Made by a program: the position numbers and the translations under genes. DNA of 64,000 nucleotides, from the NCBI RefSeq assembly GCF_000330885.1, contig NC_020059.1:671001-735000 (forward strand). The letters run 5' to 3'. Of the stretch, positions 3,792-15,277 are shown in pieces. Source of the DNA: Rhizobium tropici CIAT 899 (GTDB lineage: Bacteria > Pseudomonadota > Alphaproteobacteria > Rhizobiales > Rhizobiaceae). A model generated the notes under the pieces. That model made no database searches, was not told where the DNA came from, and saw only the letters and a program-made list of their open reading frames with translations. How positions within the stretch are numbered: the stretch's first letter is position 1; every line of letters starts with the position of its first letter.

Positions 3792-4546
3792 GTCGGCCAG
3801 CACTTGCTCTATTTATATTCGTGATTGCTGCCTTGTCGCCTGAACTGGCGGCGGCGCAGCAATTGTCGCAGCAGCTTCCCACTGATCTTCTGAACGCACC
3901 GGTCAACGGCTCGGTTGCTGCCTGGATCATCCGTACCTTCGGGCTCCTGACGATCCTGTCGATCGCACCGGGCATCCTGATCATGGTGACGAGCTTTCCG
4001 CGCTTCATCATCGCCTTTTCGATCCTGCGCACTGGCATGGGTCTCGCAACGACGCCGTCGAACATGATCCTGCTGAGTCTTTCGCTGTTCATGACGTTTT
4101 ATGTCATGTCGCCGACCTTCGATCAGGCCTGGAAGGATGGCGTGCAGCCGCTGCTTGCCAACCAGGTTTCGGAAGCCGACGCGGTGCAGCGCATTGCCGA
4201 GCCTTTCCGCACCTTCATGTCGAACAATACGCGCGACAAGGACCTGAAGCTTTTCGTCGATCTGGCGAAGGAACGCGGCCAGTCGACGGTCGTCGACAAC
4301 AAGATCGATTACCGCGTTCTGATCCCGGCCTTCATGATCTCGGAGATCCGCCGCGGCTTCGAAATCGGCTTCCTGGTGGTACTGCCGTTTCTCGTCATCG
4401 ACCTGATCGTGTCGACCATCGTCATGGCGATGGGCATGATGATGCTGCCACCGACCTCGATCTCTCTGCCGTTCAAGATTCTCTTCTTCGTGCTGATCGA
4501 CGGCTGGAACCTTTTGGTCGGCAGCCTGGTCCGCTCTTTCCACTGA
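3788..4546 (+). CDS. fliP: FliP, flagellar type III export gate protein
   Basis: FliP is a core subunit of the export gate (FliPQR). The 252-residue protein has a cleavable N-terminal signal segment (ending near AAAQQ) and four hydrophobic segments. Family motifs include SFPRFIIAFSILR, a TPSNMILLSLSLF stretch, and the C-terminal MGMMMLPPTSISLPFKILFF and DGWNLLVGSLV. It ends the left flagellar operon: a hairpin follows 17 bases after the stop. Its partners fliQ and fliR are far downstream at 25.5 and 28.0 kb, a usual rhizobial arrangement. Confidence 0.97.
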   Translation: MSRPALALFIFVIAALSPELAAAQQLSQQLPTDLLNAPVNGSVAAWIIRTFGLLTILSIAPGILIMVTSFPRFIIAFSILRTGMGLATTPSNMILLSLSLFMTFYVMSPTFDQAWKDGVQPLLANQVSEADAVQRIAEPFRTFMSNNTRDKDLKLFVDLAKERGQSTVVDNKIDYRVLIPAFMISEIRRGFEIGFLVVLPFLVIDLIVSTIVMAMGMMMLPPTSISLPFKILFFVLIDGWNLLVGSLVRSFH

Positions 4547-4562
4547 TATGAAAAGCGCAAGA

Positions 4563-4592
4563 CGATCATCGGAGCCACAGCCCCGATGATCG
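4563..4592. terminator. Bidirectional terminator hairpin between fliP and the glycosyltransferase
   Basis: A perfect 10-bp inverted repeat (CGATCATCGG / CCGATGATCG) with a 10-base loop lies between the convergent ends of fliP and the minus-strand glycosyltransferase. There is no strong T-run, so termination strength is uncertain. Position and symmetry suit a shared terminator. Confidence 0.6.
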
Positions 4593-4599
4593 CTGAAGC

Positions 4600-6543
4600 T
4601 TATTCGGCCGCGATCGCAGCCGAGTTCCGGTCATCTTCCATGAACGGTTCCGAACGCGCCGGCAGCGCCGGCACATCGATGTGATCGGGTGCCAGTCCCT
4701 GCTTGGCTCGGGCTGCCATCATTTCGAAGGCCGTCTCCAGATGGTGCGTGAAGCGTTCGGCATCGAAGAGCGGCTTGATGGAGCGATTGGCGGCCAGAAT
4801 TTGCTTGAACTCAGCGATACGCTCCGGCTGCTCGGCGAGCTGCACGGCCATGTCCTCGTAGGTCTGAATGTCTGCGGCCACCAATTCGGGCAGGCCGATC
4901 GCATTCAGCAGGCTTTCGCTGACGCGTGAGGCGAAGTTGGTACCCTTCACCGTGAGGACCGGCAGACCGCCCCACAGCTGCTCGGACGTGGTCGTATGGC
5001 CGTTGACGGGGAAGGTGTCGAGGCCGAGATCGGCAAGCTGCTGACGGTCGATGTGATCCTCGTAGCGAATGCGAGTGGTAAAGACGACCCGCTTGCGGCT
5101 GATGCCACGGGCCTCCAGACGTGCCCAGAGATTGGCCTCTGCGCGGGGACCGTTACAGAGCAGCCAAAGGACGCTGTTCTTGCTGCGCTTGAGGATATTG
5201 CACCACACATCGACCATTTGTGAGGTGATCTTGCGATTGCCGTTGAAGGAGGCGAAGACGAAGGCGTCTTCGGGAAGCTTGTGCTGCGCGCGGGTCGTCG
5301 GTCGCGGCTTCGGACGGTTGAGCGGATCGTTCGGCTGGTAGCATTCAGGTAGGCGGCAGAACTTCTCATGGAAATGTGACTTCGAATGATCCGGAAGCAC
5401 ATAGTGATCGCCGATGATGTAGTCGAGGTCGATGTTGACGACGGAGCCGGGAAAACCGAGCCAGGAAACATGGACCGGAGCTGCCATATGATTGAGGATA
5501 ATCGCGCGACTTCCTTTGGTGTGCCCCTTGAGATCGACAAGAATATCGATATTCCGAGCTCGGATCTCCTCTGCCGCGCCCTGGTCGGACAGACCGCGAA
5601 CGTCGATCATCGTGCCCCACTTGTGATCATCGAACTCCTGTTCCTTCTGGGAAGCGAGATCGGAATGGTCGAAGAGGGTGATCTCGAAGCGATCCCTGTC
5701 GTGCAACTCCAGGGTCCGCTGCATCAGCTTCATTGTCGCGTGGCCGGGCCAGAAATCGGACGAGAGATAACCGACGCGGATTTTGTTGCTCCACGTGTGT
5801 GGCAACTTGCGACGAGTCTCGGCAAGGCCGGCGGGCAAGGGTTTTGTGTCGTGGATAGCATGCTTGTTAATTGCTTCATCGCCACACCAATGCAGGTGGA
5901 AGAAGGGGTTGTCCGGGATCACGTAGGCGAGATTGCCATCTGCCAGTGCCGCTGTGATCGGCGGCATGTACCTGTCGACAACCGCGAGATCGGATATCTC
6001 TCGGGCGAAGATCAGATGAAGTATGCGGGCGATACTGCTGTCTGGATGTTTTTTGAATAGCGTCGCAACTAAGTGCCGGTTGCTTTCGTCGTAGAGATCG
6101 TCGGTGAGGAGTTTCGATGCCATGAGCCGATGCTCGGCTTTCGGTCCCTCGACCAGTACCGTCTTGAAGCCGCTCAGGAGTTCTTTCTGCTCTCGGCTCA
6201 GGAAAATGCGGGCGAGAATGAAGGCAAGATCCGGGTCCTTGAACGCCATTGGAAGGATCAGGCTTCCTACAGCAAGAGCTTGCTCGTCATTGCCGCAATC
6301 GTTGTGCAGCAACAGGGCTTCCCGAAGATAGTCGTCGCGCTGCGGCTTTTGCCGGCCCGCCAGTTCATAGGCGCTCGCCGCATCCGATCTGAAGCCGAGC
6401 TTGAGCAATGTTTTCGCCAGCAACGCATAGGTCTTTGGCGATCTGTCGACGTTCAGCAGCTCGTTCAGTATCTCGAGCGCGCGCGTATACTGTCCCTTCT
6501 GATAGAAACCGGACGCTGTCGAAAAGGCATTTTTCGTATTCAC
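4600..6543 (-). CDS. SPINDLY-type O-GlcNAc-transferase-like protein with TPR repeats
   Basis: The product is a cytoplasmic glycosyltransferase of the O-linked GlcNAc transferase/SPINDLY family (GT41). Residues about 5-110 form tetratricopeptide-like helices (FYQKGQYTRALEIL). The C-terminal two thirds carry the catalytic region: NKIRVGYLSSDFWPGHA, VHVSWLGFPGS, a YQPND segment and the hallmark LGLDTFPVNGHTTTSEQLWGG followed by FASRVSESLL.AIGL.ELVA. The longest open frame starts at a TTG (6558). A GTG at 6543 is preceded by GGAG at good spacing, giving about 647 residues, and I prefer it. It is convergent with fliP and diverges from flaA, so flagellin is an attractive protein substrate; this is inference from position. 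Sugar and acceptor are unknown. Confidence 0.85.
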   Translation of the reverse strand: MNTKNAFSTASGFYQKGQYTRALEILNELLNVDRSPKTYALLAKTLLKLGFRSDAASAYELAGRQKPQRDDYLREALLLHNDCGNDEQALAVGSLILPMAFKDPDLAFILARIFLSREQKELLSGFKTVLVEGPKAEHRLMASKLLTDDLYDESNRHLVATLFKKHPDSSIARILHLIFAREISDLAVVDRYMPPITAALADGNLAYVIPDNPFFHLHWCGDEAINKHAIHDTKPLPAGLAETRRKLPHTWSNKIRVGYLSSDFWPGHATMKLMQRTLELHDRDRFEITLFDHSDLASQKEQEFDDHKWGTMIDVRGLSDQGAAEEIRARNIDILVDLKGHTKGSRAIILNHMAAPVHVSWLGFPGSVVNIDLDYIIGDHYVLPDHSKSHFHEKFCRLPECYQPNDPLNRPKPRPTTRAQHKLPEDAFVFASFNGNRKITSQMVDVWCNILKRSKNSVLWLLCNGPRAEANLWARLEARGISRKRVVFTTRIRYEDHIDRQQLADLGLDTFPVNGHTTTSEQLWGGLPVLTVKGTNFASRVSESLLNAIGLPELVAADIQTYEDMAVQLAEQPERIAEFKQILAANRSIKPLFDAERFTHHLETAFEMMAARAKQGLAPDHIDVPALPARSEPFMEDDRNSAAIAAE

Positions 6544-6795
6544 GAGCGAGAACTCCAAGCGGAATGTTGAACTGGCTCTCGTTAAGGGCCGAGTGCCGGA
6601 ATCATGGATTCCGCCTGATTTTCGCGCACGTAGCTTGCCTGAAACCGAAGCAGCGGCCGAAAATGCCTTTACGCATTTTTAGCTACGTTCCCGAGAGCCG
6701 CTTACCGGCGGATCGAATTTAAGAAATTGGCAAGCAATGGATGCGACTTTCCTTGCGACATGACGGGTTTGGTCCTCTAGGAAAACGGATCGAGG
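6544..6795. other. Intergenic region between the glycosyltransferase and flaA
   Basis: About 250 bases without a convincing gene separate the divergent glycosyltransferase and flaA, so promoters for both should be here. I could not identify clear -35/-10 boxes. The GTTAAC pairs seen before flaB and flaC are absent, which suggests a different promoter for flaA. A weak frame running into flaA from 6741 is only an upstream extension of the flagellin frame. Confidence 0.5.
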
Positions 6796-6842
6796 GGCAT
6801 GAAGCTGCTCCGTCATCGCCGGTATCTCAGTCCGGTATGTCC
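6796..6842 (+). promoter_or_regulatory. Conserved flagellin leader element, flaA copy
   Basis: This is the flaA member of a leader motif found before all four flagellin genes: GCATGA.GCTG, then a CCGG-loop-CCGG inverted repeat, then TATGTCC. It lies about 34 bases upstream of the flaA start. The position suits a 5' untranslated region. FlbT, which in Caulobacter binds flagellin mRNA leaders, is encoded at 24.5 kb, so an RNA-level role is plausible but inferred. Confidence 0.55.
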
Positions 6843-6875
6843 TCCTTTTGTATCCAGTTTCCAGGGGACACTCCT

Positions 6876-7787
6876 ATGACCAGCATTATTACCAACAATT
6901 CCGCAATGGCCGCTCTCCAGACGCTGCGCGGCATCAGCAGCAACCTGCAGGACACGCAGGCTGCTGTTTCTTCGGGCCTGCGCATCTCCAAGGCTTCCGA
7001 CAACGCCGCCTACTGGTCGATCGCCACCAGCATGAAGTCCGACAACGGCGCCATCGGCGCGGTTTCCGACGCCCTCGGTCTCGGCGCCGCAAAGGTTGAC
7101 ACCGCTTCGACGGCCGTCAGCAGCGCCATCGACATCGTCGGCCAGATCAAGAACAAGCTTGCGACCGCCATGGAAGGTTCGGTTGACAAGAAGTCTGTTC
7201 AGGAAGAAATCGGCCAGCTGCAGCAGCAGCTGCAGAGCGTTGCCCAGTCGGCTTCGTTCAACGGCGAAAACTGGGTCATGGCTTCGAGCGGTGGCTCCGC
7301 TTCGGTCGTCTCGTCCTTCATCCGCGGCACCAACGGCACCGTTTCGGTCAGCACGACCTCCTACGCCTTCGACGCCAGCGCAACCGGCAACGTTCTGTTC
7401 GGCTCGAGCGGCGGCACGATCGACACGACTTCGGGCATTCTGGGTACGTCGGATGCGTCGGTTGGCGCTTCGGTCTTCAGCCTCGACATCTCCAGCATGA
7501 CGACCGGCCAGATCTCCAGCGCCCTGAACATGGTTCAGACTGCTCTGAACTCCATGACCAGCCTCGGCTCGAAGCTGGGCTCCGTCTCCAGCCGCATCGA
7601 TCTGCAGACGAGCTTTGCTTCCTCGCTCTCCGACTCGATCCAGTCGGGTGTGGGCAAGCTGGTTGACGCCAACATGGAACAGGAATCGAGCAAGCTGTCT
7701 GCTCTGCAGACGCAGCAGCAGCTGGCTATCCAGTCGCTGTCGATCGCCAACTCCTCGAACCAGTCGATCCTGTCGCTCTTCCGTTAA
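6876..7787 (+). CDS. flaA: Flagellin FlaA
   Basis: This is a 303-residue flagellin, the filament subunit exported by the flagellar type III system. The N-terminal D0/D1 segment has MAALQTLRGISSNLQ, VSSGLRISKASDNAAYWSIA and SDNGAIGAVSDALGLG. The C-terminal segment has SRIDLQTSFASSLSDSI, LVDANMEQESSKLSALQTQQQL and the end SILSLFR. An open frame extends to 6741, but the ATG at 6876 follows AGGGGA at good spacing and aligns with the FlaB start. Only about 13 residues differ from FlaB. The gene is probably transcribed alone, since a terminator follows. Symbol order follows rhizobial convention. Confidence 0.95.
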   Translation: MTSIITNNSAMAALQTLRGISSNLQDTQAAVSSGLRISKASDNAAYWSIATSMKSDNGAIGAVSDALGLGAAKVDTASTAVSSAIDIVGQIKNKLATAMEGSVDKKSVQEEIGQLQQQLQSVAQSASFNGENWVMASSGGSASVVSSFIRGTNGTVSVSTTSYAFDASATGNVLFGSSGGTIDTTSGILGTSDASVGASVFSLDISSMTTGQISSALNMVQTALNSMTSLGSKLGSVSSRIDLQTSFASSLSDSIQSGVGKLVDANMEQESSKLSALQTQQQLAIQSLSIANSSNQSILSLFR

Positions 7788-7796
7788 TAGGAAGAG

Positions 7797-7813
7797 CCAA
7801 CGCAGCGCGTTGG
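7797..7813 (+). terminator. Short GC-rich hairpin after flaA
   Basis: A perfect 7-bp stem (CCAACGC / GCGTTGG) with a three-base AGC loop starts nine bases after the flaA stop. The same hairpin and flanks recur after flaB at 8965-8981. It is probably an mRNA 3'-end stabiliser, since the main terminator lies further on. Confidence 0.5.
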
Positions 7814-7837
7814 TCGAAAATCCTAAACAACAAGTTA

Positions 7838-7868
7838 ACCGCGCCTGTCTAAGGCGTCGGTTTTTTTT
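7838..7868 (+). terminator. Rho-independent terminator of flaA
   Basis: A GC-rich interrupted hairpin (ACCGCGCC / GGCGTCGGT) is followed directly by a run of eight Ts at 7861-7868. It isolates flaA from flaB. Confidence 0.8.
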
Positions 7869-7900
7869 ATATTTTCTGGCTTGAGGCGGTTCAGCTTTTC

Positions 7901-7965
7901 TTAACTATATTGCTGTTTCTTAGGACCATCGAAGCGGCGAGTTAACCTTAACGATTTTGGTTAAC
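7901..7965 (+). promoter_or_regulatory. Putative promoter/activator region of flaB
   Basis: The element TTAACTATATTGCTGT (7901-7916) is followed by two GTTAAC hexamers at 7941 and 7960. The same elements occur before flaC in the same order, with the first GTTAAC 40 bases downstream of the TTAACT box in both. The box lies 143 bases (flaB) and 145 bases (flaC) before the start codon. They are candidates for Rem binding or a class III promoter; the factor is not shown by the sequence. Confidence 0.45.
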
Positions 7966-7966
7966 A

Positions 7967-8011
7967 GGCATGATGCTGAATGCCGTTACCGGTTTTAGGT
8001 CCGGAATGTCC
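7967..8011 (+). promoter_or_regulatory. Conserved flagellin leader element, flaB copy
   Basis: This copy reads GGCATGATGCTG, then TGCCGTTACCGG, an AT-rich loop and TCCGGAATGTCC. It begins two bases after the second GTTAAC hexamer and ends 33 bases before the flaB start. The CCGG pairs can form a small hairpin in RNA. Confidence 0.55.
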
Positions 8012-8043
8012 CTTATTTAACCACTGCCAAAGGGGCAAATATC

Positions 8044-8955
8044 ATGACGAGCATTCTTACCAACAACGCCGCAATGGCTGCTCTCCAGACGCTGCGCAGC
8101 ATCGGCTCCAACCTGCAGCAGACGCAGGGCGCCGTTTCTTCGGGCCTGCGCATCTCCAAGGCTTCCGACAACGCCGCCTACTGGTCGATCGCCACCAGCA
8201 TGAAGTCCGACAACGGCGCCATCGGCGCGGTTTCCGACGCCCTCGGTCTCGGCGCCGCAAAGGTTGACACCGCGACCACCGCTGTCACCAGCGCCATCGA
8301 CATCGTCGGCCAGATCAAGAACAAGCTTGCGACCGCCATGGAAGGTTCGGTTGACAAGAAGTCTGTTCAGGAAGAAATCGGCCAGCTGCAGCAGCAGCTG
8401 CAGAGCGTTGCCCAGTCGGCTTCGTTCAACGGCGAAAACTGGGTCATGGCTTCGAGCGGTGGCTCCGCTTCGGTCGTCTCGTCCTTCATCCGCGGCACCA
8501 ACGGCACCGTTTCGGTCAGCACGACCTCCTACGCCTTCGACGCCAGCGCAACCGGCAACGTTCTGTTCGGTTCGAGCGGCGGCACGATCGACACGACTTC
8601 GGGCATTCTGGGTACGTCGGATGCGTCGGTTGGCGCTTCGGTCTTCAGCCTCGACATCTCCAGCATGACTGGCGGCCAGATCTCCAGCGCCCTGAACATG
8701 GTTCAGACTGCTCTGAACTCATTGACCAGCCTCGGCTCGAAGCTGGGCTCCGTCTCCAGCCGCATCGATCTGCAGACGAGCTTTGCTTCCTCGCTCTCCG
8801 ACTCGATCCAGTCGGGTGTGGGCAAGCTGGTTGACGCCAACATGGAACAGGAATCGAGCAAGCTGTCTGCTCTGCAGACGCAGCAGCAGCTGGCCGTACA
8901 GTCGCTGTCGATCGCCAACTCCTCGAGCCAGCAGATCCTGTCGCTCTTCCGTTAA
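8044..8955 (+). CDS. flaB: Flagellin FlaB
   Basis: This 303-residue flagellin is almost identical to FlaA. The differences are scattered in the first 82 residues (for example I5L, S9A, G19S, D26Q) and in the last 100. Between them the DNA is nearly identical over several hundred bases, with one clear synonymous change (GGC to GGT before TCGAGC). The protein carries the same flagellin N- and C-terminal coiled-coil motifs and ends in QILSLFR. The start has AAGGGG nine bases upstream. It has its own promoter region and terminator and is probably a single-gene unit. Like FlaA it is a filament subunit; the division of labour among the four flagellins is unknown. Confidence 0.95.
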   Translation: MTSILTNNAAMAALQTLRSIGSNLQQTQGAVSSGLRISKASDNAAYWSIATSMKSDNGAIGAVSDALGLGAAKVDTATTAVTSAIDIVGQIKNKLATAMEGSVDKKSVQEEIGQLQQQLQSVAQSASFNGENWVMASSGGSASVVSSFIRGTNGTVSVSTTSYAFDASATGNVLFGSSGGTIDTTSGILGTSDASVGASVFSLDISSMTGGQISSALNMVQTALNSLTSLGSKLGSVSSRIDLQTSFASSLSDSIQSGVGKLVDANMEQESSKLSALQTQQQLAVQSLSIANSSSQQILSLFR

Positions 8956-8964
8956 TAGGAAGAG

Positions 8965-8981
8965 CCAACGCAGCGCGTTGG
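8965..8981 (+). terminator. Short GC-rich hairpin after flaB
   Basis: The same CCAACGC-AGC-GCGTTGG hairpin as after flaA, nine bases past the stop. Retention of this flank shows that the flaA/flaB similarity extends beyond the coding region. Confidence 0.5.
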
Positions 8982-9005
8982 TTGATGGCAAGAGATAAGC
9001 CTTCG

Positions 9006-9040
9006 CCGCGCCTTCTCCGGAAGGCGCGGTTTTCGTTTTT
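9006..9040 (+). terminator. Rho-independent terminator of flaB
   Basis: A perfect 10-bp stem (CCGCGCCTTC / GAAGGCGCGG) with a four-base loop is followed by TTTTCGTTTTT. It faces the end of the minus-strand ATP-grasp gene and may serve both. Confidence 0.85.
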
Positions 9041-9066
9041 GGCTCGGCGCATCGGCGCCGACCGGC

Positions 9067-10329
9067 TCAGGACGCCTTTTCCAGGGCGGCTGCAGCCCTT
9101 TGCCTGATGGCATCGACGAAGCCATCAAACAGCTTCCGCATTGCCGCTTGCTTGTAGGGATAGACGATCGGATCATCCATGTCATGGACCACCATCGCGA
9201 CATCGAGCTCGAACACCAGTAGGCGTCCGTCGGGAAGTTCGGCGCAATCGATGCCGAAATAATCGAGCGGGATATGACGGCAAAGGGCAGCGAAGCTCTC
9301 TTTATGGCGCAGGGCGAAATCCTGATCGAAATTTTCCATCCATGCCTGTTCGACGGCACGTTTTGCCGCGCTCTGCTCCATGCCGGCGCTTAGATAATGC
9401 ACGATCCAATGGTCTGAGAGCGCCATGTGGCTCGCGAACGCCTTGCCATTGATGAACACGATGCGCTGCTTGTTATAGTAGCCGTCGGAACCGCGAAAAT
9501 CGATGAAAGGCGCGACGTAAAGTTCCGGAGCGGGCTGAGCCTTCAGAAAGGTGACGAGCTCGACGGAGTCGGTGATGCGTTCCATGCCGTTGCCGGCATG
9601 CGTGCTGATCGGGCGCACGACCAAAGGATAGTTAAGGCCCGGAGCGCAATCGTCCAGTCGCTTCACGCCCATGGCGACGGCCATAAGATCGGCGTGCGAT
9701 ACGCGGTGGGTAAAGGGCGAAAGGATGGAGGGCTCATTCGCCAGCATGGCGCTGACGCCGTCGCGCGTCAGTCTCGCGATCAGTCCCGGATTGCGGTTCA
9801 TCACCGGACCGTCGAATTTGGCAAGCAGCGTCTGCATATGAGCGAGAAGGGGGGCGTTTTCGGTTGATTCCCCAATCGCCATGAAGGCGACGTCGTGCTT
9901 CGGCAGGTCGGTGAGCATGGATGTCTCTAGATCGACATAGTGCAGCCATAGCACGCAGTCGCTGCCGGCCAGCAGAAAATCGAGCGGCGTATTGGCCATG
10001 AAATCGCCTTCGGTCACGAAAGCGACTAGCCGCGGGCCAGTCCCGTTGCCATGGACGACGCAATAGTCGCGGCGCATCTGCACGGCGCTCTTCAGGATTT
10101 GGCGGGCTTCGTCGCTACGGCCGAGGGTTTGCAGGATGATCGCCATGTCCAACAGCGCGGCCGCGGCTGTCGGATCCACCGTCACGCGTTGCATGAGCTC
10201 GTTCCAGAGGGGGTTCACGTCGTGCCCGGCGTAGACGAGGGAGACTATTCTCCGCATGCCGAGAATTCGGGCGCCGGCCGGCATGTTCAATAGTGCCGGA
10301 TCGGCGATGGGGGCTTTGGTCATCAGCAT
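9067..10329 (-). CDS. ATP-grasp-like protein with N-terminal TPR-like region
   Basis: The 420-residue product looks like a cytoplasmic ATP-grasp ligase-type protein. Residues about 40-90 are TPR-like (PTAAAALLDMAIILQTLGRSDEARQIL). The second half has ATP-grasp-like features: YPLVVRPISTHAGNGMERI, the hydrophobic AFIDFRGSDGYYNKQR-type strand (here APFIDFRGSDGYYNKQR), DYFGIDCAELPDGRLLVFELD and HDMDD, which could carry the metal-binding acidic residues. Its start overlaps the stop of the upstream decarboxylase, so the two are one operon. ATP-grasp enzymes form amide or peptide bonds between a carboxylate and an amine; an amine from the decarboxylase is an obvious candidate partner. That link is inference and no substrate can be named. 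Confidence 0.7.
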   Translation of the reverse strand: MLMTKAPIADPALLNMPAGARILGMRRIVSLVYAGHDVNPLWNELMQRVTVDPTAAAALLDMAIILQTLGRSDEARQILKSAVQMRRDYCVVHGNGTGPRLVAFVTEGDFMANTPLDFLLAGSDCVLWLHYVDLETSMLTDLPKHDVAFMAIGESTENAPLLAHMQTLLAKFDGPVMNRNPGLIARLTRDGVSAMLANEPSILSPFTHRVSHADLMAVAMGVKRLDDCAPGLNYPLVVRPISTHAGNGMERITDSVELVTFLKAQPAPELYVAPFIDFRGSDGYYNKQRIVFINGKAFASHMALSDHWIVHYLSAGMEQSAAKRAVEQAWMENFDQDFALRHKESFAALCRHIPLDYFGIDCAELPDGRLLVFELDVAMVVHDMDDPIVYPYKQAAMRKLFDGFVDAIRQRAAAALEKAS

Positions 10330-11810
10330 TGCGGAAGATCCTGTTGGGAGCCGATTGTCAAAACGCTCCGAACGAGCGCGTCCATGTCAGTCTGTCGGGT
10401 ACGGTGATTTACGATCGCCGCGCGAATTGCCGGCTGACCGTCCAGATGGGTCAGGGACGGAGCAACGCAGCCTTCGGCATGGAGACGCTCGACGATGTGG
10501 GAATTAACCGATGCCGGCATCGTTCCGGAGGCTCCGACATAGGCGAAGCAGACGATGTTGAGGGCGACGGGCGCGAGCAGCTTCAGCGCTGGCTCCCGCT
10601 CGATCCGCCGTGCCAGCTCGCGCGCCAGCAGGCAGTTGGCGCTCATTGCGTCCCCCAAGGCTTTGACGCCATAGGTTTTCAGCGTGAACCAGGTCTTCAG
10701 CGCCCTGAAGCCGCGCGACAGATCCGGGCCGTAGTCGCAGGGCCACCAGTCTCCGCCCGCAAGGCCGCTGGCTGCCCGGCTGAGATAGGCGGCATCCGAT
10801 GCGAAGGTTTGCCGCTGCCACTCGCTGTCCCGCACGAGGAGGAATCCCGCATCGTAAGGCACCTGGCCCCATTTGTGGAAATCGAAGGCGAGTGAATCGC
10901 AGCTGCCGATCCCCGCGAACAGATGTGCGAGGTCGGGGCTGAGGACACCGAGGGCACCCAGCGCGCCATCGACGTGAAAATGAAGATCGTAGCTGTCGGC
11001 GATATGCCGCAAACCTGTGAGATCATCAACGGCGCCCGTATTGACCGTTCCCGCACTGCCGATGACGAGGAATGGCACGAGGCCTTCCTGCCTGTCGCGA
11101 AGGATCGCTTGTTCCAGCGCATCGATATCGATCTGGCCGAGTTCGTTGACGGCAATGCGCCGGAGCTGGTCGCTGCCGATGCCGGACATTTCGAAGGCGC
11201 GGGGAACGCAGCCATGCACTTCGCTCGAGGCATAGGCGACGAGCCGGGATTCGTCGGTCAGACCGGTTGCACGAACATCGCGGCCGAGCTTGCGGCATCT
11301 GGCGATCTGCACCGCAACGAAATTGGCCTGCGATGCACCGGTCAGGAATATGCCGCCGGCCGTTTCCGGAAAGGAGAAGATCTCGCGCGTCCAGCGGATG
11401 ATCTGCCGCTCGACCTCGATCGGCATATGGTCGCGTCCGCCGAGATTGGCATTCAGCCCGCCGGTGAGCATTTCGGCGAGCATGCCGGTAACGGTGCCGC
11501 CGCCCTGGACCCAGCCCATGAAGCCCGGGTGAATGTTGCCGCTGCCATAGGGGAGGATGTGGTCCCGAAAAATGGCGTGGACGTCAGCCAGATCGCTGCC
11601 TTCTATAGGCAATGGTACATCGAATTTGGCACGAGCAGAGGAGGGAGCGTGCTGCCATACTGGCTTCGTTGCGAGTGTCTGGAGATGATCGAACATGTCG
11701 TCGAGCATCCGGTGGCCTTGTTTGCGCAGGGCCTGCCAGTCGTCGGGGTCGAGACTTGTTCGCTCGTGGCGATCGATCGCCGCCCCTCCGGCCTCTTGCA
11801 AACTGAACAT
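10323..11810 (-). CDS. PLP-dependent group II amino acid decarboxylase
   Basis: This is a fold-type I, pyridoxal-phosphate amino acid decarboxylase of the aromatic/glutamate group, about 495 residues. Visible motifs are NIHPGFMGWVQGGGT, GIFLTGASQANFVAVQIAR, LHFHVDGALGALG (with the ring-stacking histidine and the PLP aspartate) and FDFHKWGQVPYDAGF with the Schiff-base lysine in HKW. The frame is open to a GTG at 11843, but the ATG at 11810 has GAGG five bases upstream and is the likelier start. The substrate cannot be read from sequence; HKW and HVD.A are shared by aromatic amino acid, histidine and related decarboxylases. It is the first gene of a two-gene minus-strand operon inserted between flaB and flaC. 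Confidence 0.85.
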   Translation of the reverse strand: MFSLQEAGGAAIDRHERTSLDPDDWQALRKQGHRMLDDMFDHLQTLATKPVWQHAPSSARAKFDVPLPIEGSDLADVHAIFRDHILPYGSGNIHPGFMGWVQGGGTVTGMLAEMLTGGLNANLGGRDHMPIEVERQIIRWTREIFSFPETAGGIFLTGASQANFVAVQIARCRKLGRDVRATGLTDESRLVAYASSEVHGCVPRAFEMSGIGSDQLRRIAVNELGQIDIDALEQAILRDRQEGLVPFLVIGSAGTVNTGAVDDLTGLRHIADSYDLHFHVDGALGALGVLSPDLAHLFAGIGSCDSLAFDFHKWGQVPYDAGFLLVRDSEWQRQTFASDAAYLSRAASGLAGGDWWPCDYGPDLSRGFRALKTWFTLKTYGVKALGDAMSANCLLARELARRIEREPALKLLAPVALNIVCFAYVGASGTMPASVNSHIVERLHAEGCVAPSLTHLDGQPAIRAAIVNHRTRQTDMDALVRSVLTIGSQQDLPQC

Positions 11811-12104
11811 CTGAACCTCGCATGTGGCCGCCGGTATCGCCACCGCCGCCGGAACGCTACCGAAAAAATGCCGGCCTCTTTGCCCGGCACCGGGCGGGCC
11901 TATCTACGACGCTGAAGATGGCGCGAGGCTGACGTGGCTTCTTGCATTCCTTCAGACGGCCGCGCGGATGGAAAATAGCATGTCGGCGCATGCCATGCGG
12001 CTCGGCTCCTTTCCTGTCCAAGGAAAGGCAAAGCAAGCGCTGCCTGATGGTCATCGGCAGAATAGCGGCTTCCGTTAACTTTTGCGGGCGGCATTAACCT
12101 TTTA
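11811..12104. other. Intergenic region between the decarboxylase and flaC
   Basis: About 290 bases without a supported gene carry the divergent promoter of the decarboxylase operon and the far upstream part of flaC. A small inverted repeat (TCCTTTCCTGTCCAAGGAAAGGC) lies at 12008-12030. No recognisable operator or RNA gene was seen. Confidence 0.4.
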
Positions 12105-12171
12105 TTAACTCTATTGCTGTCAGTTGCGGCTAACGCAACGGTTGGTTAACCTCTCCTAAGAGCCGGTTAAC
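12105..12171 (+). promoter_or_regulatory. Putative promoter/activator region of flaC
   Basis: TTAACTCTATTGCTGT at 12105-12120 is followed by GTTAAC hexamers at 12145 and 12166, the same layout as before flaB. The start codon is 145 bases downstream of the first element (143 in flaB). Surrounding sequence has diverged, so conservation of these boxes suggests function. Confidence 0.45.
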
Positions 12172-12172
12172 A

Positions 12173-12216
12173 AGCATGAGGCTGATTGCCGTTCCCGGCC
12201 GCAGACCGGAATGTCC
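12173..12216 (+). promoter_or_regulatory. Conserved flagellin leader element, flaC copy
   Basis: AGCATGAGGCTGATTGCCGT is followed by CCCGG, a short loop and ACCGGAATGTCC. It starts immediately after the second GTTAAC and ends 34 bases before the flaC ATG, like the flaB copy. Confidence 0.55.
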
Positions 12217-12249
12217 CTTCCAAAGTCAGCCATAAAGGGGCACTTTTCG

Positions 12250-13167
12250 ATGACCAGCATCCTCACCAACGACGCGGCGATGTCCGCTCTCCAAACCCTG
12301 CGCGGCATCAACACGAATCTGCAGGATACGCAGAGCCGCGTTTCCTCGGGCTACAAGGTTGCAAAGGCAGCCGACAACGCCGCTTATTGGTCGATCGCGA
12401 CAACCATGCGTTCCGACAATGGTGCGCTTTCCGCCGTGTCCGATGCATTGGGCCTGGGTGCGGCCAAGGTCGATACGGCCTATGCCGCAATGGACAGCGC
12501 CATCAAGGTCGTTCAGCAGATCAAGGACAAGCTCGTCGCCGCAACCGAAAGCAGTGTCTCGAAGGCTGATATCCAGGAGGAGGTCTCCCAGCTTCAGCAG
12601 CAGCTGGAAAGCATAGCACAGTCCGCATCCTTCTCCGGACAGAACTGGATGTATGCGGCGAATGGCGCTTCTGCCTCCGTGGTTTCCTCCTTCGTGCGCA
12701 ACAATAACGGCACGGTTTCCGTCAACAGCACCAGCTACGCCTTCGACACCGGTTCGCAAGGCAACGTGCTGTTCGGCGCAAGCGGCGGTACGATCGATAC
12801 CAGCTCCGGTATTCTGGGCACTCAGCAGAGTATCAGCGGCACATCCTATTCGGTCTTCAGTCTCGATATCACCAACATGACGGGCGGCGACATCGGCAAG
12901 GCCATGAATCTCGTTCAGGGCGCTCTCGATGCTTTGACGAGCACGGCCTCGCAGCTCGGTTCGCTTTCGACGCGCATCGACCTGCAGACGAGCTTCGTTT
13001 CCACCCTGCACGACACCATCGATTCCGGTGTCGGCAAGCTCGTGGATGCGAACATGGAAGAGGAGTCGAGCAAGCTGTCCGCGCTGCAGACCCAGCAGCA
13101 ACTGGCAATCCAATCGCTGCAGATTGCCAATTCGAGCGCACAGAATGTTCTCGCTCTCTTCAAGTGA
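12250..13167 (+). CDS. flaC: Flagellin FlaC
   Basis: This is a 305-residue flagellin. It keeps the N-terminal motifs (AMSALQTLRGINTNLQDTQ, VSSGYKVAKAADNAAYWSIA, LGLGAAKVDTA) and the C-terminal block (STRIDLQTSFVSTLHDTI, LVDANMEEESSKLSALQTQQQL, NVLALFK). It is clearly more diverged from FlaA and FlaB than they are from each other. The ATG at 12250 has AAGGGG eight bases upstream; the upstream in-frame extension from 12211 reads through the conserved leader and is unlikely to be translated. A hairpin follows. It is a filament subunit, and its position after the inserted decarboxylase operon separates it from flaB. Confidence 0.94.
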   Translation: MTSILTNDAAMSALQTLRGINTNLQDTQSRVSSGYKVAKAADNAAYWSIATTMRSDNGALSAVSDALGLGAAKVDTAYAAMDSAIKVVQQIKDKLVAATESSVSKADIQEEVSQLQQQLESIAQSASFSGQNWMYAANGASASVVSSFVRNNNGTVSVNSTSYAFDTGSQGNVLFGASGGTIDTSSGILGTQQSISGTSYSVFSLDITNMTGGDIGKAMNLVQGALDALTSTASQLGSLSTRIDLQTSFVSTLHDTIDSGVGKLVDANMEEESSKLSALQTQQQLAIQSLQIANSSAQNVLALFK

Positions 13168-13195
13168 GCCTTGACTGGAGCTTGCGTTGCGATCG

Positions 13196-13224
13196 CGCGG
13201 CGGCATTTCCCTCTTGTCGCCGCG
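13196..13224 (+). terminator. Hairpin after flaC
   Basis: A 9-bp stem with one G-T pair (CGCGGCGGC / GTCGCCGCG) around an 11-base loop lies 28 bases after the flaC stop and is followed by TATAAGCTTTTGTT. It is probably the flaC terminator. Confidence 0.6.
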
Positions 13225-13353
13225 TATAAGCTTTTGTTAACGTTGCCGCTAATTGATTTGCAGTCTTTGCGCAGGTCCGGCTTTGGTTCTCCCCCAAGCG
13301 GATGCCGGACTGCAGTTTAGCGACGGGCCGTGCTGGGATGTTTCCCGCTGGTG

Positions 13354-13394
13354 GGCATGAGGCCAATCGTTGCTGCCGGATCGGTCCGGCTTGC
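13354..13394 (+). promoter_or_regulatory. Conserved flagellin leader element, flaD copy (divergent)
   Basis: GGCATGAGGC is followed by TGCCGG, a short loop, GGTCCGG and CTTGCC, ending 28 bases before the flaD ATG. It is the weakest of the four copies, but it retains the GCATGA box and the CCGG-loop-CCGG hairpin. Confidence 0.45.
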
Positions 13395-13422
13395 CAGTTC
13401 CAATGGAATTACGGATTTTCAG

Positions 13423-14403
13423 ATGAGCAATGTGACGACGAATCCTTCCACGTCGGCGGCCCTGACCGTGCTGCGCGGTATCAACAAAGATCTCGATGTC
13501 GTGCAGCAGCAGGTCTCGTCCGGTTACCGCATTCAGACGGCGAGCGACGATCCCACCTATTGGTCGATGGCGACCACCATGCGCTCGGACCGAAGCAGCC
13601 TTTCCACGATCACGGACGCGCTTGGTCTCGGCGCGTCGAAGGTCGATACCGCATCCACCGCCATGGATACGGTCGTCAGCCTGCTGACCCAGATCCAGTC
13701 TAAACTGGTTTCGGCCAAGGAATCGGGCACAAACAAGAATGCGATCAACGCCGATATTCAGCAGCTCAAGAACCAGCTGCAATCCGTTACCCAATCGGCA
13801 TCCTTCTCCGGCGAGAACTGGCTCTACAACACCGAGCAGCAAGCCAACACGCAGCAATCGGTGATCAGCAACTTCACGCGGGGCACGGGCGGACAGATCA
13901 ATTTTACGACGATCGACTATGACAGTTCCCAAACCCTGATGATCGATACCGCTCAACCGGCGCGGGGTTTGCTGACGAAGAATGTCGACGCAAGCACGCT
14001 CGGCGCTCCGGGAACCAGCGGCGGGACCGCTCGCAACTACTATCTCCTTGCCGCCAGCGGCGGTACGACACCACCAGGTGGAACAGAGATCTCGATCTCC
14101 AGCAGTACGACAGACGACGAGTTGACCGACATGATCAACGTCACCAATTCGCTCCTGAAATCGGCAACGTCTGCCGATTCGACCTTGGGTCTGATGTCGT
14201 CCAACATCACCGACCAGTCGGATTATATTTCCAAGCTTGGCGACGCCATCAAGAGCAGCGTCGGTGATCTGGTCGACACCAACATGGAAGAGGCCTCGGT
14301 GCGGCAGAGTGCCCTGCAGACAGCGCAGCAGATGGGTGTTCAGACATTGTCGATCGCCAACAGCATGGCGAGCAAGATTCTGATCATCCTTCAATCGAAA
14401 TGA
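13423..14403 (+). CDS. flaD: Flagellin FlaD
   Basis: This 326-residue flagellin is the most diverged of the four. The N-terminal motifs are LTVLRGINKDLD, QQVSSGYRIQTASDDPTYWSMATTMRSD and LGLGASKVDTA. The C-terminal motifs are DYISKLGDAIKSSVGDLVDTNMEEASVRQSALQTAQQMG and IANSMASKIL. The central region differs completely from FlaA-C. I chose the ATG at 13423 because upstream in-frame codons lie in the leader element; its ribosome site is weak (GGA only), which may mean low translation. Probably a minor filament subunit. Confidence 0.92.
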   Translation: MSNVTTNPSTSAALTVLRGINKDLDVVQQQVSSGYRIQTASDDPTYWSMATTMRSDRSSLSTITDALGLGASKVDTASTAMDTVVSLLTQIQSKLVSAKESGTNKNAINADIQQLKNQLQSVTQSASFSGENWLYNTEQQANTQQSVISNFTRGTGGQINFTTIDYDSSQTLMIDTAQPARGLLTKNVDASTLGAPGTSGGTARNYYLLAASGGTTPPGGTEISISSSTTDDELTDMINVTNSLLKSATSADSTLGLMSSNITDQSDYISKLGDAIKSSVGDLVDTNMEEASVRQSALQTAQQMGVQTLSIANSMASKILIILQSK

Positions 14404-14644
14404 CCGTCGGGCGGAACTCGGATCGGCTATGCCGCATCGCATTCATCCTCGCACAAGTTTGACTGCCTACGGTCTTTTGCAATGGCTTGGTTGCGTAAGG
14501 TACCGGTGACATTGGTCCCGGACGCTGCTGCCCGAGGACGGAAACCGGAAGCGTGATGATCGACGTTTTGAGAATGGAAATGGATCGGCCGGCTGCCGGC
14601 ATCGACTTGCAGCGCCTCTGGGGCGCGAATGGGGAGATGCGCGG

Positions 14645-15277
14645 ATGAGCTTGGCACTATCTCGATATCTCAAGGATTTCAGCGCCGAACAGGTTTCTCC
14701 GGCGCATGTCGAGGATATGGCCTTTCCGGAGCCGATCGAGTTTGCCGAAATTCCAGGCGAGCCGCCCGTTGATGTTGAGGCCGAGCGTCGCGCTGCCTAT
14801 GCAGAGGGGCATGAAGCGGCGACGCAGGAACTGACGCAGAAGCATCAGGCCGAACTCGATGCCATGGCCCAGTCGTTCCGCGCAGAAATGGATGCGCTGC
14901 GGATACATTACGAAGAGCAGGCGGCGGAAAAGATCGCGGCAGATATGAACCGCGTCGCCATAATGCTCGGGCAGGCGATCAGCACGGAAGCCGCCGCCAT
15001 CCTTGCGCCGATCATGACTGAGACGCTGACGACCAGGGCGGTCGGCGATCTTGCTGAGCTGGTCAAAGCTTCGATCCTCGACGGCGGTGTCGGGCCGATC
15101 TCGGTCACCGGTCCGCGCCATCTCTTCGAGGTTCTCCATAGCCGCCTCGGCGACGAAGGCGCGCTGTTGCGGCATATCGAGGCCAATGATGTCGATCTCA
15201 CCGTCACCATCGGCGAGAGCGTTCTCGTGACCCGTATGTCCGCCTGGGCCGCCAGTCTGAAAGAGATCCTGAAATGA
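14645..15277 (+). CDS. FliH-like flagellar protein upstream of motB
   Basis: The 210-residue protein resembles FliH-type stalk proteins that bind the export ATPase FliI. It has an acidic N-terminus, a long helix with AERRAAYAEGHEAATQEL and following charged repeats (residues about 45-110), and a C-terminal alpha/beta region (ILAPIMTETLTTRAVGDL, GPISVTGPRHLFEVL, DVDLTVTIGESVLVTRMSAWAASLKE). The start has GGGGAG upstream, and the stop overlaps motB by four bases. In rhizobia a hypothetical gene occupies this position; the FliH assignment rests on architecture, not on a strict motif. Confidence 0.6.
   Translation: MSLALSRYLKDFSAEQVSPAHVEDMAFPEPIEFAEIPGEPPVDVEAERRAAYAEGHEAATQELTQKHQAELDAMAQSFRAEMDALRIHYEEQAAEKIAADMNRVAIMLGQAISTEAAAILAPIMTETLTTRAVGDLAELVKASILDGGVGPISVTGPRHLFEVLHSRLGDEGALLRHIEANDVDLTVTIGESVLVTRMSAWAASLKEILK

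Follow-up and report, generated by a model that had tools for sequence, protein, structure and literature searches.

The stretch of DNA analyzed here (the window; 64,000 nucleotides, G000:C1:671001-735000) lies in the genome of Rhizobium tropici CIAT 899 (6.69 Mb, 4 contigs) and contains four plus-strand flagellin genes, flaA (6876-7787), flaB (8044-8955), flaC (12250-13167), and flaD (13423-14403), all recognized by matches to Flagellin_N and Flagellin_C, with the starts taken from gene calls. Two minus-strand genes stand between flaB and flaC. The first gene of the pair, DEC (10323-11810; ATG start), encodes a group II PLP decarboxylase of 495 aa, recognized by its Pyridoxal_deC match and by alignment to solved decarboxylases over 450 residues. 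The second, GRASP (9067-10329; ATG start), encodes a protein of 420 aa with a TPR-like N-terminus and an ATP-grasp-like region, recognized by TPR matches, ATP-grasp profiles, and co-occurrence with DEC. The two genes overlap by 7 bp (10323-10329). The first-pass annotation had described an overlap-coupled minus-strand pair between tandem plus-strand flagellin genes, and ORF coordinates and Pfam matches confirmed this arrangement. The left neighbor flaB and the right neighbor flaC, which is divergent from DEC, are directly adjacent in G337, a genome without the pair; both mark the place of insertion and have no functional part in what follows.

Several features of the flagellin array itself were recorded. 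By inspection of the sequence, the FlaA and FlaB proteins are near-identical for the most part, and recent duplication or gene conversion may account for this. Adjoining flaA is a minus-strand gene (4600-6558) for a TPR and glycosyltransferase family 41 protein (Glyco_transf_41, E = 6e-74), a candidate flagellin glycosyltransferase; a relative was present in 33 of the clustered loci, and none was called in Rhizobium sp. BK376 (L082) or G385 (L303). A block 5' of flaC (approximately 12074-12210), rich in GTTAAC and TTAAC and conserved also in the pair-less G337, is probably the flaC promoter region. A structured RNA scan of window positions 4500 to 15000 gave no score near the gathering level. 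In L054 and L061, the long flagellin ORFs were rejected as artifacts, as their reading frames cross runs of N.

DEC matched Pyridoxal_deC with 199.2 bits (E = 1.2e-58; cut-off, 27), and its closest solved chain was 4obu, a pyridoxal-dependent decarboxylase domain protein (E = 9.6e-58). The FDFHKWG stretch, in which the Schiff-base lysine had been seen earlier, indeed aligned with the corresponding region of solved decarboxylases; in this alignment, judged by eye, the lysine, the PLP-binding His and Asp, and the loop tyrosine were all present. No NCBIfam equivalog assigned DEC to a substrate class, as all seven families listed scored far below their cut-offs; the best-scoring model, the diaminobutyrate decarboxylase RhbB, reached 135.3 of 900 bits. 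Compared by eye with pig DOPA decarboxylase, DEC appears to have polar or small residues at several aromatic pocket positions, so that an aromatic amino acid is weakly disfavored as its substrate. In profile-profile comparison, DEC matched class V PLP enzymes at 98.0%. A DEC relative (40.5% identical) was also observed on plasmid p1 of Ensifer adhaerens (L354, 6832-9440), directly 3' of another pyridoxal-phosphate-dependent enzyme gene.

TPR-like repeats were found near the N-terminus of GRASP by Pfam matches, and no curated ATP-grasp family in Pfam or NCBIfam exceeded its cut-off. Matches to CPSase_L_D2 were present in 14 of 61 GRASP relatives (best E = 0.0017). A profile of the C-terminal region, built from 23 regions, matched 16 solved sequences at E ≤ 10, of which 13 were ATP-grasp enzymes; the top match was of the RimK/LysX type and is labeled ribosomal protein S6 modification protein (E = 0.0012). 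Profile-profile comparison with the RimK-hit proteins of relatives gave 73% (E = 3e-5) with the cleaned, rebuilt reference set and 94% (E = 2.1e-7) with a less clean first set that contained wrong-frame ORFs, and controls remained at or below 0.2% for four unrelated families and five column shuffles. At the position aligned with the ATP-binding lysine, Arg239 was present in 61 of 61 sequences; Asp361, Glu374, and Asp376, presumably the metal-binding acidic positions, were invariant. The assignment of the C-terminal region as ATP-grasp is supported by the profiles. The earlier description of an ATP-grasp-like protein is in this respect backed by profile similarity (13 of 16 solved sequences), but not by a curated family cut-off. 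A second, solo GRASP homologue of R. tropici (L083, G000:C4:98409-99587; 48% identical) adjoins a sensor kinase and a response regulator. A phage or defense origin of the pair was considered and rejected, since a phage search with GRASP gave no match and no defense model was convincing (for DEC, only weak matches of the cysteine-desulfurase type, with E = 0.0025 and 0.0074).

The spread of the genes was assessed in 148 genomes of the genus: 53 had GRASP, 55 had DEC (E ≤ 1e-60), and 53 had c13, a third gene described below. All GRASP-bearing genomes had both GRASP and DEC (53/53), and GRASP and c13 were found together in 50 of the 53; Fisher values for this co-occurrence take the genomes as unrelated. 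DEC without GRASP was present in G334 and G430 (41% identity). The pairing of DEC and GRASP is specific, as the first-pass annotation had held. The pair was located among flagellin genes in 37 of the 53 genomes (R. tropici and 36 fetched loci) and outside flagellin genes in the other 16 (15 fetched loci, and G358 by coordinates only). The orthologous pair sat among flagellins in every fetched orthologue locus of the genus (36/36), and its placement is therefore more than chance. The named loci are the best 80 of 312 confirmed loci and were fetched by GRASP: among these best 80 of 312, 29 lay in the flagellin array and belonged to one lineage around R. tropici, 36 had DEC but, within five genes, no flagellin of the window's cluster, and 15 had no DEC within the same span, including two (L191 and L206) in which gene calls missed GRASP itself. 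Hosts of the 36 non-flagellin pair loci included Rhizobium, Mesorhizobium, Hyphomicrobium, Novosphingobium, Sphingomonas, Stakelama, Phenylobacterium, and Caulobacter. Since the pair occurs without flagellins in so many hosts, the two genes are paired generally, and only one lineage has them among flagellins. Presence across the family was sporadic: 14 of 297 genomes gave a match to GRASP at E ≤ 0.001, a count that includes weak matches. Flagellin arrays without the pair were found in G337 and in 14 other Rhizobium loci.

The third gene, c13, lay beside the pair in 27 of the 36 non-flagellin pair loci among the best 80 of 312 named loci. In R. tropici it is found outside the window (G000:C4:1039743-1041284), by dctA/B/D and thiamine genes, and five plasmid-collection records of 1.3 to 1.6 Mb contain most of this region. 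Within the R. tropici lineage, only Rhizobium sp. BK376 (G382) has all three genes together among the flagellins; elsewhere c13 was not located beside the pair. Separated c13 was present in 34 of the 36 lineage genomes other than BK376, each time on another contig than the pair, and c13 was absent from G348 (82% complete) and G379 (73% complete). The third GRASP genome of the genus without c13 was G385 (99% complete), which has the pair. A c13 match without the pair was found in G330, G345, and G394; two of these proteins were placed in the c13 tree, far out and 22% identical to R. tropici c13. Distant c13-like proteins were seen in G330, G345, G394, and G322 (L290 to L292), genomes that differ in whether they carry the pair. 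The tree of c13 sequences grouped the BK376 gene with the 17 fetched separated genes (support 97/57; identity, 60 to 67%), and the 17 separated genes alone had a support of 96/94. From this grouping, c13 seems to have moved out of the cassette once the cassette was already in the flagellin array. At certain Rhizobium loci (L089, scanned, and L086, L090, L091, L093, L095, and L096, by clustering), the three-gene cassette stands beside EptA-like (phosphoethanolamine transferase-like) and tyrosine-phosphatase-like genes. Neighboring genes were rejected as a clue to the product, as EptA-like, phosphatase, TetR, two-component, amidohydrolase, and dct/thiamine genes vary between lineages.

Searches of c13 against curated families gave little. 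When 40 aligned members were searched singly against Pfam at E ≤ 1, matches were scattered (the commonest in 3 members) and none was to class V; with NCBIfam, two of three proteins had no match and one matched EgtE under its cut-off (2.2e-4); and the sequences of solved structures gave no credible relative up to an E value of 10. The profile of the 40 members, however, matched class V PLP enzymes of relatives, the class of SufS and EgtE, at 88.6% (E = 2.6e-6) over 358 columns, and the VDACQ and TGSK motifs of c13 aligned with the Asp and Lys motifs VDGSQ and TGHK of class V; c13 differs from SufS/EgtE in lacking a class V Pfam match at E ≤ 1 in 40 of 40 members. Control comparisons with four other families and five column shuffles were at or below 0.3%; one of the four families was DEC, whose profile the c13 profile matched at 0.3%, even though DEC matched class V at 98.0%. 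On these profiles, c13 would be a remote class V PLP-like enzyme without a Pfam family. Relatives at E ≤ 0.001 numbered 285 of 7,997 scored candidates; among the 120 c13 matches listed, all named ones read hypothetical protein. A Rhizobium tumorigenes plasmid record labels the three genes tetratricopeptide repeat-containing protein, hypothetical protein, and pyridoxal-dependent decarboxylase. That c13 belongs to the DEC/GRASP set is new here.

A 19-bp motif (11915-11933, minus strand; sense GTCAGCCTCGCGCCATCTT) lies 104 bp before the DEC start codon and is conserved across the aligned pair loci and at the separated c13. In an alignment of the DEC-flaC gap covering 19 of the 37 pair loci, the block (sense GTCAGCYTCGCKCCAYCTT) was present 5' of DEC in 19 of 19, once with a one-base deletion, and the flaB-flaC gap of the pair-less G337 showed no such block. 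All 17 fetched loci of a separated c13 had the same block 5' of that gene, differing from one form of the 19-mer at no more than 3 positions. The distance of the motif from the gene is approximately 100 bp at the pair and at the remote c13 alike. No motif was found upstream of c13 in BK376 (at least 7 mismatches), where c13 stands in an operon-like row with the pair. In the R. tropici genome, an 18-mer of the DEC form gave 6 matches at ≤2 mismatches, versus 1 for a reversed control, and two of the 6 were those at DEC and c13. A survey of 26 genomes with a degenerate 18-mer (≤1 mismatch) detected a site at all 15 separated c13 genes and at 15 of 16 DEC genes, BK376 included; the DEC gene missed was that of G392, the carrier of the one-base deletion. 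Ten genomes lacking this form of the system, four of them with the other cassette type, had 1 site in total. The survey also gave 11 further sites (three without mismatch) versus 6 for the reversed control pattern, and the sites at DEC and c13 therefore stand out, with a few other real sites being possible. In the 17-kb flagellin loci, one site was present at ≤2 mismatches in 33 of 34, at DEC wherever its position was checked. In other cassette lineages, best-mismatch counts for the motif resembled those of shuffled upstream sequence, except at two loci in the set that belong to the R. tropici lineage. A third copy of the 18-bp pattern was observed at G000:C4:568170-568187, with a like site in G417; it was rejected as a further regulon member, as no gene start lies in a promoter-like place downstream. 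The common motif is a putative regulatory element of DEC/GRASP and the separated c13.

G337 is informative on the relation between the two places. Its flagellin array reads flaA, flaB, a gap of approximately 470 bp, flaC, flaD, with no recognizable remnant of the pair, and its GST gene is followed directly by dctD, where R. tropici has c13 in between. No GRASP or c13 match and no motif site were found in this genome; its DEC-like protein is only 27% identical, and R. tropici has such a protein too. In a tree of four flagellar-cluster proteins covering 49 of 52 loci (L049, L080, and L081 were dropped for too few markers), G337 was nested in the pair-bearing clade with supports of 1.0, 0.99, and 0.91. 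The nested position of a genome without the three genes and the motif suggests that they were lost together from both places; this concerns a single species and a four-protein tree. Beyond the flagellar-cluster markers, c13 and GRASP distances were correlated (partial r = 0.67), as were GRASP and DEC distances (partial r = 0.68), each over 153 dependent pairs; these correlations count as supporting evidence only.

Co-occurrence, adjacency in many lineages, a common motif where the genes are split, and joint absence in a nested species lead us to conclude that DEC, GRASP, and c13 very probably form one functional unit. With moderate confidence, we favor a dedicated three-enzyme biosynthetic unit, its third part c13 outside the window, that works by an amide mechanism. 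Against this reading stand GRASP without DEC in 15 of the best 80 of 312 named loci and in the solo L083, DEC without GRASP in G334 and G430, G385 (and the less complete G348 and G379) without c13, the 0.3% match between the c13 and DEC profiles, the motif not being seen in other cassette lineages, the 11 further motif sites of the survey, the ATP-grasp scores below every curated cut-off, the Arg at the ATP-binding lysine position, and a joint absence in one species on a four-protein tree. DEC would produce an amine by removing CO2 from an amino acid; GRASP would activate a carboxylate with ATP, as an acyl phosphate, and join it to this amine, giving an amide or pseudopeptide; and c13 would provide a PLP-dependent step that makes or alters one building block. 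The amide-type small molecule proposed in the first-pass annotation fits the chemistry of a decarboxylase and an ATP-grasp enzyme, and for this inferred mechanism the balance is modestly favorable.

Enzymes of these types are known to act together. In butirosin synthesis, the ATP-grasp ligase BtrJ and the PLP decarboxylase BtrK belong to one pathway; they act on a carrier protein, and the fold of the butirosin decarboxylase differs from that of DEC. In archaeal methanofuran synthesis, MfnA is a tyrosine decarboxylase and MfnD a tyramine:glutamate ligase (PMC8141765), so that there too a PLP decarboxylase makes an amine that a ligase joins to a carboxylate. DEC is distantly similar to the MfnA model (67.8 bits, far below the cut-off of 299.4), whereas GRASP, with an ATP-grasp region nearest to RimK/LysX-type enzymes, is likened to MfnD by described role only; unlike MfnA/MfnD, the R. 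tropici set has a third PLP-like gene and TPR-like repeats. In the fungal E-64 pathway, an ATP-grasp enzyme and an amide bond synthetase are used with amines from PLP decarboxylases (PMC12568646). The likeness lies in decarboxylation-derived amines that feed an amide pathway with an ATP-grasp enzyme; the fungal pathway requires an oxygenase and an amide bond synthetase, and among the neighbors scanned no counterparts of these stood beside the cassette. Membership in the methanofuran or E-64 pathway is not claimed.

The first-pass annotation had linked the pair to flagellin or to a motility signal, and the flagellin address would be accounted for if the pair modified flagellin or made such a signal. 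All 36 fetched orthologue loci do have the pair at this place, so the position was kept throughout the history of the lineage. However, the comparison of neighborhoods across genomes showed that the pair often occurs where flagellins are absent: of the 51 named loci not in a flagellin array (among the best 80 of 312), 36 carry it with no such flagellins within five genes, and the flagellin arrays of G337 and of 14 other Rhizobium loci do not contain it. The motif, moreover, occurs once per flagellin locus (33/34), at DEC where its position was checked, and its second gene lies far from flagellar genes, next to dctA/B/D and thiamine genes. The distribution, the placement of the motif, and the third gene led us to reject a flagellar role of the pair, and we consider modification of flagellin or a motility signal very improbable. 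The flagellin position seems to be the place where the ancestor of the R. tropici lineage would have received the cassette, and a functional link to the flagellum is unlikely. Of the earlier reading as a whole, the pairing stands and the amide-type chemistry fits, but the link to flagellin or motility does not hold.

GRASP could instead modify a protein or peptide, like RimK or a graspetide enzyme, with DEC supplying the amine that is attached. TPR-like repeats, which often bind proteins, are present in GRASP, and its best solved match is the protein labeled for ribosomal protein S6 modification (E = 0.0012). Neighborhood listings (ORFs of at least 60 aa), however, contained no small conserved gene beside the pair, and no target protein was tied to the cassette across lineages, which leaves this alternative unlikely, if the most plausible of those weighed here. 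It is less likely still that the three genes are a co-inherited block without joint function. The several gene orders and contexts among the named loci and the sporadic presence in the family (14/297 genomes at E ≤ 0.001, weak matches included) agree with such a block, but it fails to explain why the parts, which lie apart in the R. tropici lineage, are yet kept together, have a common motif, and are jointly absent in G337; the partial correlation of c13 and GRASP after the flagellar-cluster markers (r = 0.67; 153 dependent pairs) likewise argues against it.

No paper on these genes or their combination was found in the open-licence full texts searched, and the main text of PMC4782375 makes no mention of decarboxylase, flagell, or motility. 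Tentatively, the dedicated three-enzyme unit might represent an undescribed alphaproteobacterial small-molecule pathway that combines a decarboxylase, a TPR-ATP-grasp ligase, and a PLP-like family without a curated model, and that in the R. tropici lineage is split between a chromosomal flagellin array and a second replicon and tied by its own regulatory element. A positional curiosity is in this way turned into a testable pathway, with three candidate enzymes, one of them without any curated family, in a probably tractable bean symbiont. The common motif offers a handle on the regulator and, via the regulator, on the compound, and the address in the flagellin cluster is a caution against inferring function from position.
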